Shown here: piece by piece, positions 37,989 through 41,128 of the stretch
Numbering within the stretch: the first letter of the stretch is position 1
How the letters are laid out: every line of letters begins with the position of its first letter
Virus record (IMG/VR): IMGVR_UViG_3300042455_000580
Coordinates: 1-42,917 of that record
Length of the DNA: 42,917 bases
Reading direction: 5' to 3' (one strand)
Source: a virus
Notes under the pieces: model-generated
The model's input: only the letters and a program-made list of their open reading frames with translations
What the model was told of the DNA's origin: nothing
The model's database searches: none
Position numbers and translations under genes: made by a program

Positions 37989-38007
37989 AAAAAAAGATAT
38001 ATATAAT

Positions 38008-38057: not shown

Positions 38058-38443
38058 GGGGATGACCGGCTTTTGACAGGTATGAAGACTGGTTGTATTG
38101 ATGCAAGTAAGGTTAGATGGAAACCTTTGAAGACCTATCAAACAATAAGTGCAAACGTAGAATTATCTACAATGACGTTCGAAGATGCTATGGCATGGAT
38201 GAACTCATTCGATTACGCAGTAGCTGCCTAATCAATCCCGCATCACTCGTGGGACTTAAAAAGAAGTGAACAATTTAAGGTCTCGTTTGAGGTTCTACCT
38301 ATTAAAGTGAATCTTCCACATTTGAGAGTGGCAATGGCAAAATAGAAACTCTATATTTTTTCAGTTTAGAAAAATTGAATAAACTTGTGAACGATTTACA
38401 TTAGAAACTTATTTGGACTTGGGTTCGAATCCCAACATCTCCA
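38058..38443 (+). ncRNA. ssrA: Transfer-messenger RNA (tmRNA)
   Basis: The 5' end GGGGATG pairs with the 3' end CATCTCC (38436-38442) as a tRNA-like acceptor. It includes the G3-U70 pair needed for alanine charging and A73 as discriminator. The T arm has GGGTTCGAATCCC. After the 5' domain with GACCGGC and GACAGGT, a resume-type GCA codon at 38151 opens a 26-codon tag frame ending in D-Y-A-V-A-A and TAA at 38229. The A-V-A-A end is the degradation signal type of tmRNA tags. The tag is longer than the usual 8-15 residues of bacteria. Pseudoknot-like segments follow to 38400. CCA is not encoded. It would rescue stalled ribosomes and tag incomplete proteins during infection. Confidence 0.93.
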
Positions 38444-38445
38444 CA

Positions 38446-38499
38446 AAAAATAAATGAGAAATCATTTGGATATATGAAAAAAGTTTCGTATATTTGTAT
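38446..38499 (+). repeat. 54-bp promoter repeat, copy 1
   Basis: Identical to 38584-38637. Each copy holds a complete promoter (TTG, 20-bp spacer, TATATTTG) directly upstream of an RNA gene. Confidence 0.92.
38466..38496 (+). promoter_or_regulatory. Host-type promoter of the initiator tRNA
   Basis: TTG 38466-38468, a 20-bp spacer and TATATTTG 38489-38496. The spacer has an imperfect form of the TACGAAA/TTTCGTA repeat. Confidence 0.82.
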
Positions 38500-38509
38500 C
38501 ATAATAAAT

Positions 38510-38584
38510 CGCGGGGAGGATGTTGGTTTCCCACCGGTCTCATAAGCCAGGTCTACGATAGTTCGATTCTGTCTCCCGCAACCA
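38510..38584 (+). tRNA. Initiator tRNA-fMet (CAT)
   Basis: 5' CGCGGGG pairs with TCCCGCA, leaving the C1-A72 mismatch that marks bacterial initiator tRNAs. The anticodon loop is CTCATAA, and the T arm is GATAG-TTCGATT-CTGTC. Encoded A73 and CCA complete the 3' end. It resembles E. coli tRNA-fMet at both ends. Confidence 0.9.
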
Positions 38585-38637
38585 AAAATAAATGAGAAAT
38601 CATTTGGATATATGAAAAAAGTTTCGTATATTTGTAT
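38584..38637 (+). repeat. 54-bp promoter repeat, copy 2
   Basis: Identical to 38446-38499, offset 138 bp. It precedes the small structured RNA. Confidence 0.92.
38604..38634 (+). promoter_or_regulatory. Host-type promoter of the small structured RNA
   Basis: TTG 38604-38606, a 20-bp spacer and TATATTTG 38627-38634. It is the promoter inside repeat copy 2, so transcription should start at about 38641. Confidence 0.8.
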
Positions 38638-38640
38638 TAT

Positions 38641-38728
38641 AGAAAATGAGGTTAGTATGCCGGTGTGGAGAAGTCCGGTGTTAAGAGGACCCGAGAGGTA
38701 GAAATACCATCCCACTACTCATCCAACA
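38641..38728 (+). ncRNA. Small structured RNA with tRNA-like ends
   Basis: A complete promoter directly upstream implies a separate transcript. Its ends pair: ATGAG (38646-38650) and TAGT (38653-38656) with ACTA-CTCAT (38714-38722), followed by CCA (38723-38725). Inside are the hairpins GTCC/GGAC (38673-38676 with 38687-38690) and GGTA-GAAA-TACC (38697-38708). No anticodon arm or TTCRA T-loop is seen, so it is not a normal tRNA. It could be a tRNA mimic or a degenerate tRNA. Function unknown. Confidence 0.55.
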
Positions 38729-38748
38729 AAAAAAAAGTAAAAATAATT

Positions 38749-38778
38749 TTGATATATGGAAAAAGTTTCGTATATTTG
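38749..38778 (+). promoter_or_regulatory. Host-type promoter of the large structured RNA
   Basis: TTG 38749-38751, a 19-bp spacer and TATATTTG 38771-38778. The first helix of the RNA begins within 10 bp of the expected start. Confidence 0.8.
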
Positions 38779-38784
38779 TATTAT

Positions 38785-39698
38785 AGATTTGAGACCAATA
38801 GGTGATGAAAGATACTCGGTTAATCAAATTAAAAATGTTCTTTAAAATATAAGCACATAGTAGACTAGTTCTACATAGTGTACATCGGCCGCCTATGGTC
38901 GTGAAATAAACTACGAAAGTAGGATAAAGTGAATCATTTGGTTTAAGTGATTTGCGGCTTCGAAAGGAGCTTGAGTAGGCAAGTGGAATATCATTTCACC
39001 TTTAGTATTGAGGGTAACACTGTAAAGAGGGTGGTGAAATGACTGGGCTAAAGTAGATAGTTCAGTTGAGGTGGGAACACCAATAAGAATAATCCATAGA
39101 GTTATTGCGAGAAACTGAAACTTAATCCCTTTCAACAATTGCGTGATTCAATATTAGAGTTTGCTTAAAACCGAAAGGTAAGATAAAGTACGAGTGGTGT
39201 CGTTATTATCCTTACTCTTCACCTACCAAGGTAGGAGTTATGAAGCAAACTTAAAGTATGGTGTTAGGGATAACACATCGAGTAGTTCAGTATTCTGTTG
39301 TTCAAAAGATAACGGAGCAGGTTGGCGAACCACTACTTGAAACCATCTACAAACCAAACTCAATTTGCCGGTTAGTGCAAACTATAAACAAAAAGAGCAA
39401 AAGTGTTCGTCAGTTGCAAACGAAAGGTGCGTACATAGTAGGGAGTTGTTCCTTGCCACGATACCTCCGCAAGAGGTCTGTGATTCTTTCGAAAAACTTC
39501 TAACACCGCAAGTGTGAATCTGTTCGGCAGAGTAGAAGAAGCGGAGTAAAGAGAGAGTAGTTTGTAACTTTATGAGTGGTTGGCTTAACTAACCCGCATT
39601 GAATCGGTACTATCCAAAAGATAGTGGAAAAGTTGGGAAACAATAATCCAACGAAAGCTGGTTCTTTTACGTGAGTATTCTCATCCGTAATAATATAA
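38785..39698 (+). ncRNA. Large ornate structured RNA (about 0.9 kb), GOLLD/ROOL-like candidate
   Basis: No credible gene lies here, but the sequence is dense in hairpins. Examples: CTAC-GAAA-GTAG (38911), GCTTC-GAAA-GGAGC (38957), GGTG-GGAA-CACC (39070), ACC-GAAA-GGT (39170), GTGTTA-GGGA-TAACAC (39261), ACCTC/GAGGT (39463), ACAC/GTGT (39503), ACTATC/GATAGT (39609) and an 8-bp stem with bulge (39668-39689). Long-range helices are perfect: 38991-39000 with 39033-39042, 39158-39166 with 39243-39251, and CTTCTA 39497 with TAGAAG 39533 closing a three-way junction. Many loops are GNRA. It has its own promoter and ends 1 bp before a tRNA, whose processing by RNase P could form its 3' end. GOLLD and ROOL RNAs are known giant RNAs of phages often next to tRNAs; that identity is inferred. 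Confidence 0.8.
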
Positions 39699-39772
39699 GC
39701 GAGATTGGTGTAATGGTAGCACATCGGCCGTCCAGGTCGGAGGAGGGGGTTCAATTCCTTTGTTTCGCTCCA
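39699..39772 (+). tRNA. tRNA-Gly (TCC), atypical anticodon loop
   Basis: GCGAGAT pairs with GTTTCGC. U73 and CCA are encoded, and T loop TTCAATT is present. The stem TCGGC/GTCGG leaves the loop CGTCCAG with TCC at 34-36. G1-C72, C2-G71, U73 and C35-C36 are glycine identity elements. Position 33 is G instead of U, so function is not certain. Confidence 0.72.
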
Positions 39773-39775
39773 TAA

Positions 39776-39848
39776 GCGGAGAAAGTGTTCCGGTAGCATG
39801 TGTACATTCCTGTACAATGAGGTGGTTCGATTCCATCTCTCCGCTCCA
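39776..39848 (+). tRNA. tRNA-Gly-like (TCC), short anticodon loop
   Basis: GCGGAGA pairs with TCTCCGC, U73-CCA is encoded, and the T arm GGTGG-TTCGATT-CCATC is good. The anticodon stem TGTAC/GTACA leaves a 6-base loop ATTCCT with TCC after U33. One base is missing compared with a normal 7-base loop. Confidence 0.62.
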
Positions 39849-39933
39849 AAATTTAAATTATAAAATAATAACCAATATTACTATTTTTAACTTAAAATAA
39901 AAAAAAGTTATATATATTAAAAGAAAAAAGAAA

Positions 39934-40077
39934 ATGAAAACTCTTAACCTACATACGATAGCTTATCAACCGACATCAAATTTGATGTGGGCAGGCAATC
40001 GCGTGTGTGATTTTAGTTCGAAAGGAATTAAAAATCAGTTAGGGGCAACAATATTAAACGATGTAGACTTGGGATAA
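39934..40077 (+). CDS. 47-residue ORF inside the RNA cluster
   Basis: An ATG ORF of 47 codons after an A-rich leader, followed 29 bp later by a strong terminator. The product has no recognised motif, and neither signal peptide nor membrane segment is evident. Its only support is position: the 84 bp upstream are A/T-rich and could hold a promoter, and the terminator closes the unit. It may be a real small protein or an untranslated RNA. Confidence 0.4.
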   Translation: MKTLNLHTIAYQPTSNLMWAGNRVCDFSSKGIKNQLGATILNDVDLG

Positions 40078-40106
40078 AACCAAACTACATACTTAAATTA
40101 AAACAA

Positions 40107-40136
40107 CCCCTGACTCAAAAAGTTAGGGGTTTTTTT
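40107..40136 (+). terminator. Intrinsic terminator within the RNA cluster
   Basis: CCCCTGACT (40107-40115) pairs with AGTTAGGGG (40121-40129), loop CAAAA, then seven T. It separates the first two downstream tRNAs and the small ORF from the twelve-tRNA run. Confidence 0.9.
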
Positions 40137-40150
40137 ATGTTTAAAAATAA

Positions 40151-40222
40151 GTTGATGTGGCGCAGTGGTAGCGCAGTAGACTGTTAATCTATTGGTCGTA
40201 GGTTCGAATCCTACCATCAACG
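40151..40222 (+). tRNA. tRNA-Asn (GTT)
   Basis: Acceptor GTTGATG/CATCAAC, anticodon loop CTGTTAA, T loop TTCGAAT, discriminator G as expected for Asn. First of a dense run of 12 tRNAs. Confidence 0.95.
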
Positions 40223-40254
40223 CAAGAATAAGTTCTTTGACATAATGGTGAAAT

Positions 40255-40327
40255 AGTGGGTTAGCTCAATTGGTAGAGCGCCGTCTTTACATGGCGGATG
40301 TTGGGGGTTCGAGTCCCTCACTCACTA
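40255..40327 (+). tRNA. tRNA-Val (TAC)
   Basis: AGTGGGT/ACTCACT acceptor, anticodon stem CCGTC/GGCGG with loop TTTACAT, T loop TTCGAGT, A73. Confidence 0.92.
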
Positions 40328-40335
40328 CAATAGAT

Positions 40336-40409
40336 GTCCGTATGACGTAATTGGCAACCGTGCTGGTTTTAGAAACCAGATTGTGTAGGTTCGAATCCTA
40401 CTATGGACA
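40336..40409 (+). tRNA. tRNA-Leu (TAG) with short variable loop
   Basis: GTCCGTA/TATGGAC acceptor, perfect anticodon stem CTGGT/ACCAG with loop TTTAGAA, T arm GTAGG-TTCGAAT-CCTAC, A73. Only about five bases separate the anticodon and T stems, whereas bacterial tRNA-Leu normally has a long variable arm. Confidence 0.85.
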
Positions 40410-40448
40410 CAGGTAGTTCCCGATGCTACATATCAAAATCGGACTTGG

Positions 40449-40525
40449 GGAGTAGTGGCAGATGAGGTTCATTGCGCTGGACTGAAAATCCAGAGGAACA
40501 GGTTCGATACCTGTCTGCTCCACCA
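40449..40525 (+). tRNA. tRNA-Phe (GAA)
   Basis: GGAGTAG/CTGCTCC acceptor, anticodon stem CTGGA/TCCAG with loop CTGAAAA, T arm ACAGG-TTCGATA-CCTGT, encoded ACCA. Confidence 0.95.
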
Positions 40526-40527
40526 AT

Positions 40528-40600
40528 GAACTCGTAGCTCAATTGGTAGAGCACTACACTTTTAATGTAGGGGTTTTGGGTTCGATTCCCAACGGGTTCA
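40528..40600 (+). tRNA. tRNA-Lys (TTT)
   Basis: GAACTCG/CGGGTTC acceptor, anticodon stem CTACA/TGTAG with loop CTTTTAA, T arm TTGGG-TTCGATT-CCCAA, A73. Confidence 0.95.
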
Positions 40601-40606
40601 CAATAT

Positions 40607-40679
40607 AGGGTGGTATATCAATGGTTAGATTACTTGCTTTGGGAGCAAGAGGCTGTGAGTTCGAGTCTCGCTCACCCTA
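40607..40679 (+). tRNA. tRNA-Pro (TGG)
   Basis: AGGGTGG/TCACCCT acceptor, anticodon stem CTTGC/GCAAG with loop TTTGGGA, T loop TTCGAGT, A73. Confidence 0.95.
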
Positions 40680-40682
40680 CAC

Positions 40683-40756
40683 AGAGATATAGCTCAATTG
40701 GTTAGAGCACCGACCTGATACGTCGGGGGTTATAGGTTCGAGTCCTATTTTCTCTA
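40683..40756 (+). tRNA. tRNA-Ile (GAT)
   Basis: AGAGATA/TTTCTCT acceptor with one T-T mismatch, anticodon stem CCGAC/GTCGG with loop CTGATAC, T arm ATAGG-TTCGAGT-CCTAT, A73. A hairpin of AACTTT/AAGGTT type follows in the 70-bp gap. Confidence 0.93.
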
Positions 40757-40826
40757 CACTTTTTCAACTTTTAGATAAAGGTTGGAAAATTTTTTGAAGG
40801 TAATTTTTTACTTTGGAAATAAATAC

Positions 40827-40897
40827 ATGTCTTTGGTGCAATGGTAGCATATCGGTCTCCAAAACCGCAGATGAAAGTTCGAATCTTTCAGGACGTG
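40827..40897 (+). tRNA. tRNA-Trp (CCA)
   Basis: ATGTCTT/AGGACGT acceptor, anticodon loop CTCCAAA, T arm GAAAG-TTCGAAT-CTTTC, discriminator G as expected for Trp. Confidence 0.94.
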
Positions 40898-40901
40898 CAA
40901 T

Positions 40902-40973
40902 GGTTCTATGGTGTAATGGATAGCACCTGACACTACGGATGTCAAAGTTGGAGTTCGAGTCTCTATGGAACTA
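40902..40973 (+). tRNA. tRNA-Arg (ACG)
   Basis: GGTTCTA/TGGAACT acceptor, perfect anticodon stem TGACA/TGTCA with loop CTACGGA, T loop TTCGAGT, A73. It would read CGN codons after A34 deamination to inosine. Confidence 0.93.
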
Positions 40974-40979
40974 CATTAT

Positions 40980-41050
40980 GGTGAATTGTCCGAGTGGTTA
41001 GGGAGTGCTCTGCAAAAGCATTTACATTGGTTCGAATCCAATATTCACCT
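40980..41050 (+). tRNA. tRNA-Cys (GCA)
   Basis: GGTGAAT/ATTCACC acceptor, anticodon loop CTGCAAA, T arm ATTGG-TTCGAAT-CCAAT, discriminator U as expected for Cys. Confidence 0.95.
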
Positions 41051-41051
41051 C

Positions 41052-41128
41052 GTTGTTTATAGTGTTAATGGTCAGCACGTCAGTTTGTGGTACTGATAGT
41101 ATGGGTTCGAATCCCATTAAACACCCCA
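41052..41128 (+). tRNA. tRNA-His (GTG)
   Basis: Anticodon stem TCAGT/ACTGA with loop TTGTGGT, T arm ATGGG-TTCGAAT-CCCAT, encoded C73-CCA. A G at -1 pairs with C73, the histidine identity feature. Position 1-72 is a T-C mismatch. Confidence 0.92.

Follow-up and report, generated by a model that had tools for sequence, protein, structure and literature searches.

The region at positions 38785–39698 of the window (the whole 42,917-base stretch of viral DNA analyzed here) holds a complete member of GOLLD, an established giant-RNA family of phages, and its leader carries a boxA of the type found in rRNA operons. The best overall explanation, to which we assign a probability of about 75%, is that a complete GOLLD gene constitutes its own transcription unit, with boxA-driven, rRNA-like synthesis, a 3′ end freed by RNase P, and assembly of the RNA into a cage. 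The family itself is already known, but the boxA in its leader appears to be new: no description of a boxA linked to GOLLD or ROOL was found in the openly accessible literature (subscription papers lay outside the search). The structure of GOLLD has been solved; to our knowledge, no function or mechanism of expression has been assigned to it.

Family membership follows from the Rfam search. The GOLLD model, RF02032, matches positions 39278–39687 on the + strand with 292.6 bits (E 8.3e-83) and is covered from end to end (model positions 1–416 of 416), which is about twice the gathering score of 150 bits. Only the 3′ domain of the RNA is represented in this model, and the 5′ half of the stretch matches no Rfam family even at E 5. 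The first-pass annotation had offered membership in GOLLD or ROOL, or a new class, and had proposed a search with the GOLLD, ROOL, and HEARO covariance models; the full-length RF02032 match, together with the lack of any ROOL (RF03087) or HEARO match within the stretch for E values up to 5, assigns the RNA to GOLLD rather than to a new class. ROOL is a giant phage RNA that lies near tRNAs and forms an RNA cage, and the window RNA resembles it in being a giant phage RNA with tRNAs nearby but differs in having no RF03087 match. The likeness to GOLLD extends to a length of ~800 nt or more, a conserved 3′ domain preceded by a less conserved, structured and separate 5′ domain of ~400 nt, a variable linker, phage origin, and a tRNA island (39699–41128). 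The window RNA differs from GOLLD as described in that its leader has a Bacteroidota-type promoter and a boxA and its linker contains no tRNA. The same model matches 31 of the 50 records behind our pattern hits compared with none of 14 control genomes.

The record is a virus fragment with genes for a myovirus tail sheath and tube, UvsX, DnaB, ribonucleotide reductase, and a 2OG-Fe(II) oxygenase. Its tail sheath is similar to those of, among others, the Flavobacterium phages "immuto," and the source is a myovirus that most likely infects Bacteroidota. Host assignment through GOLLD pattern hits in genome contigs was abandoned, as these were chance hits, none of which was confirmed by the homologue profile.

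That this is a highly structured non-coding stretch of about 0.9 kb, as had been claimed, is borne out by its folding energy (−248 kcal/mol compared with a shuffle mean of −214, z −4.2) and by the conservation of its helices. The view that it holds no credible open reading frame also stands, with no frame inside it exceeding 81 amino acids and with many insertions and deletions between homologues. Two pattern scans of viral contigs gave ~140 loci matching the homologue profile, in most cases across both domains. The cap, or 5′ domain (about 38880–39277, + strand), which lies outside the Rfam model, is common to about 50 nonredundant phage loci, and an nhmmer search with it alone returned 59 loci. 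When 48 distinct full-length homologues with a mean identity of 66% are aligned, the 5′ domain has 119 consensus pairs, of which 94.8% are kept, with two-sided changes at 91. When the partner strand is slid, pairing falls to 37–41% and two-sided changes to 41–50 pairs; when letters are shuffled among sequences, the corresponding values are 76.9% and at most 73. The alignment thereby gives covariation support to a GOLLD domain that is absent from the Rfam model.

The two long-range helices named in the first-pass annotation both covary among the homologues, the check that it had called for. One (38992–39000 with 39033–39041; previously drawn as 38991–39000 with 39033–39042) encloses an inner hairpin at 39008–39026; across the 48 homologues this helix stays paired at 94.9%, and 8 of its 9 pairs have changed on both sides. 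The other (39157–39166 with 39243–39252; previously 39158–39166 with 39243–39251) closes a branched domain, is paired at 95.6% in the same homologues, and shows changes on both sides at 4 of 8 pairs. A shift of the partner strand by 1–2 bases lowers pairing to 24–40% and 33–61%, respectively. Several GNRA tetraloops are also present by inspection, as GAAA at 38915–38918 and 39173–39176 and GGAA at 39074–39077. The first branch of the second helix, ACC-GAAA-GGT (39170–39179), is kept in most homologues and, named by layout, fits the conserved GAAA loop L11a (Kretsch 2025).

The 3′ domain, or ring domain, corresponds to the RF02032 match and includes a variable linker at 39341–39392 that is unpaired in the Rfam alignment, varies among homologues, and by comparison would be the disordered loop within the solved GOLLD cage. 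A hairpin at 39503–39515 occupies the position of L21a by layout. Its self-complementary loop dinucleotide is GC in the window, and at this position 47 of the 48 homologues have either GC (36) or CG (11). The same switch has been described for bridge B8, a self-kissing contact in the solved cage. The cage was demonstrated in vitro for the 833-nt env-38 GOLLD, a 14-mer whose cap is made of residues 1–420 and whose ring is made of residues 421–833, residues 497–538 being a disordered linker (PMC12286853). The window 5′ domain is like that of env-38 by layout, and we infer that the window GOLLD would likewise self-assemble into a closed cage.

Upstream of the RNA, as had been claimed, lies a promoter of its own. 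It is of Bacteroidota type (TTG-N19-TATATTTG, 38747–38778, + strand) and belongs to a near-identical 32-bp element that precedes four consecutive RNA genes, namely the tmRNA (element at 38007), a tRNA-Met-like gene (element at 38465), a small RNA (element at 38603), and GOLLD, where shuffled sequences give an expectation of 0. Among homologues, TTG-N18–20-TAnnTTTG precedes GOLLD in 23 of 25, against a background of 0.056 per 260 nt. The four elements between 38007 and 38778 look as if they had been copied together. From the promoter spacing, the 5′ end is predicted at about 38785. The previously proposed extent of 38785–39698 is to be divided: the conserved core spans about 38880–39687, and the first part, up to 38879 or 38880, is a variable leader.

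Within this leader, 58 nt past the promoter, is the boxA GTTCTTTAAAA (38837–38847, + strand), a perfect match to the rRNA-operon consensus GYTCTTTAANA of gamma-proteobacteria (PMC5725501), a study which by its own statement left non-coding RNAs out of consideration. The pattern GTTCTTTRAMA occurs exactly twice in the 42.9-kb window, at 38837 and 40232, where 0.29 sites are expected. A boxA is present in the leaders of 24 of 25 nonredundant homologues (background 0.013 per leader) and, in a larger set, in 41 of 43 testable nonredundant leaders, although boxA is a short motif and these counts, drawn from homologues that share ancestry, are not independent trials. Its spacing from the promoter in homologues is mostly 25–28 nt. 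Homologous leaders can barely be aligned except at GTTCTTT[G/A]A; GTTCTTT is their commonest 7-mer (46 of 53), and leaders without a strict boxA usually have the variant GTTCTTAGAAA or GTTCTTTTACA in its place. The divergent GOLLDs L284, L245, and L301 have GTTCTTTAACAG, GTTCTTTAACAAT, and GTTCTTTTACATATT, respectively, at this place, the first two of which match the gamma-proteobacterial consensus (PMC5725501). In Bacteroidota, about half of the 16S loci have GTTCTTTRAA ~130–215 nt before the 16S gene (several of the other contigs end too early to show it), and nearly all 16S–23S spacers have GTTCTTTGACATATTGG before the 23S gene. The window resembles these rRNA leaders and spacers in that the motif precedes a long untranslated RNA with extensive folding, with the difference that the product is a phage GOLLD and not rRNA.

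The boxA is not a feature of all GOLLDs, an idea that we dropped because it is absent from the GOLLDs of L268, L081, and the cultured Acinetobacter phage vB_AciJM_313 (L312). A boxA before ROOL was likewise dropped: a pattern scan for ROOL found no loci, and the single ROOL found, in contig L302, has no boxA in the 400 nt upstream.

At the other end, a tRNA-Gly(TCC) detected by ARAGORN occupies 39699–39772 on the + strand, 11 nt after the Rfam match and directly past the end that had been proposed beside a tRNA. It is followed by a second tRNA-like gene (39776–39848, + strand; ARAGORN), and a strong intrinsic terminator with an 11-bp stem and a T run (40105–40138, + strand; −18.6 kcal/mol, z −4.5) closes the GOLLD-tRNA unit. 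A terminator scan found no + strand terminator between GOLLD and tRNA-Gly, so the GOLLD 3′ end is most simply explained by RNase P cutting where the tRNA begins, and tRNA-Gly is presumed to mark that site. At 18 of 58 nonredundant loci, a tRNA (Met, Gly, Thr, Pro, or Cys) begins between −5 and +16 nt relative to the 3′ end of GOLLD; many homologues have none there, so RNase P would be one route and not a general one. Farther into the array, between tRNA-Asn and tRNA-Val, lies the second boxA, AGTTCTTTGACATAATGG in full (40232–40242, + strand). It is of the rRNA-spacer type, agrees with the Bacteroidota 16S–23S spacer boxA at 17 of 18 bases, and has counterparts in 7 of 17 tRNA arrays adjoining GOLLD. 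The first-pass annotation was right about the setting, in both promoter and tRNA adjacency, but missed the leader boxA and the closing terminator.

Other readings of these features can be weighed against this one. It is extremely improbable that the RNA represents a new giant phage RNA class separate from GOLLD and ROOL. The absence of any Rfam match for the 5′ half, even at E 5, would fit such a class, but the 3′ half aligns with the entire GOLLD model, which led us to drop this reading, and the 5′ region of published GOLLD is already known to be less conserved (PMC12286853). By inspection, the stems, in their order, and the GAAA branch upstream of the 3′ domain agree with the published layout of P11a, P12, and P13. 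We also consider it quite unlikely that the promoter and boxA serve the tRNA cluster, with GOLLD a read-through passenger in the leader of a tRNA operon. The tRNAs directly after GOLLD and the second boxA in the array are compatible with that arrangement. Most homologues, however, keep the promoter and boxA with no tRNA within 1.5 kb after GOLLD, and in the window the terminator parts GOLLD and two tRNA genes from the remaining array.

A further alternative, unlikely in our estimation, is that GTTCTTT is conserved for the fold of GOLLD itself, through pairing with the linker at 39569–39576, and is not a boxA. RNAalifold does pair 38838–38845 with 39569–39576 in both alignments, with ~90% of bases paired. 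This pairing (91.1%) is no higher than the level reached when partner letters are shuffled among sequences (90.6%), and two-sided changes occur at only 1 of 8 pairs. By layout, 39569–39576 is the J17/22 strand, the partner of loop L22 in the solved structure. The match to the rRNA boxA also extends past the paired bases (as in L006, AAGTTCTTTGACATATT), and a second copy of the motif resides in the tRNA array. With no covariation, pairing between the leader and J17/22 was dropped as the cause of the conservation of GTTCTTT.

We return to GOLLD as a transcription unit with a putatively functional boxA. Transcription would start at about 38785 from the Bacteroidota-type promoter, and the leader boxA could then bring host rRNA machinery (NusB/S10 with NusA, NusG, and SuhB) to the polymerase. 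The Nus-modified polymerase might complete the long untranslated RNA and allow it to fold co-transcriptionally, as rRNA does. The transcript would continue through tRNA-Gly and the second tRNA-like gene to the terminator at 40105–40138, and RNase P could release the GOLLD 3′ end by cutting at the 5′ end of tRNA-Gly. The RNA would fold into its 5′ cap and 3′ ring domains and then self-assemble into a closed cage, as env-38 does. Nus binding to the window leader and RNase P cleavage at tRNA-Gly are both putative. In Escherichia coli, boxA brings NusB/E and SuhB to polymerase, and it does so outside a ribosomal context as well; at rRNA, the Nus/SuhB complex is proposed to act chiefly in maturation and co-transcriptional folding (PMC4807359).

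More generally, GOLLD synthesis in Bacteroidota phages, and that of some divergent GOLLDs, is on balance probably carried out by the rRNA-type Nus antitermination and folding machinery of the host via the leader boxA. If so, the phage handles its giant cage as if it were another ribosomal RNA and possibly pulls Nus factors off host rRNA. The boxA suggests how a 0.9-kb untranslated RNA evades Rho and folds in the cell, and its conservation points to a particular host machinery on which these RNAs probably rely. As for the cage, we would only tentatively suggest a role late in infection linked to translation, for example in holding tRNAs or ribosomal particles. The GOLLD of a Lactobacillus brevis prophage is dispensable for phage production (PMC7567579), which counts against the overall explanation.

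The survey of other phages yielded several further GOLLDs. An unannotated one in the cultured phage vB_AciJM_313 (L312 2367–2750, PX050566.1; 207 bits) sits in a gap of a tRNA cluster and offers a potential bench system; its 3′ domain lies at 81,344–81,727 of PX050566.1, and the host of the phage is Acinetobacter johnsonii. A GOLLD and a ROOL occur together on one phage contig, L302 (2351–2795 and 10074–10664), ~7 kb apart. Among the divergent GOLLDs, L284 scores 161.6 bits, and L245 (7045–7438, 140 bits) and L301 (2697–3090, 148 bits) fall just under 150 bits with strong E-values, so the Rfam cut-off loses likely true members. A tRNA lies within the linker of the GOLLDs in L291 (4127–4571), L242 (636–1077), and L284 (5582–6008), an arrangement already reported for some GOLLDs. 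GOLLDs with both domains are also present in two uncultured huge-phage genomes, L080 and L081 (LR745206.1 and LR756502.1), of 634 and 642 kb.

The other RNA genes upstream of the window GOLLD have features of their own. The tRNA-Met-like gene (38510–38582, loop CTCATAA) is undetected by ARAGORN and occurs also in L004, L023, L040, L243, L280, and L285. The small RNA (~85 nt, 38640–38735) has its own promoter and a GAAA hairpin, belongs to no Rfam family, and is confined to the near relatives L004, L023, and L280. The phage-encoded tmRNA (38058–38446) has an unusually long predicted tag peptide, ANVELSTMTFEDAMAWMNSFDYAVAA, and the real tag may be shorter.
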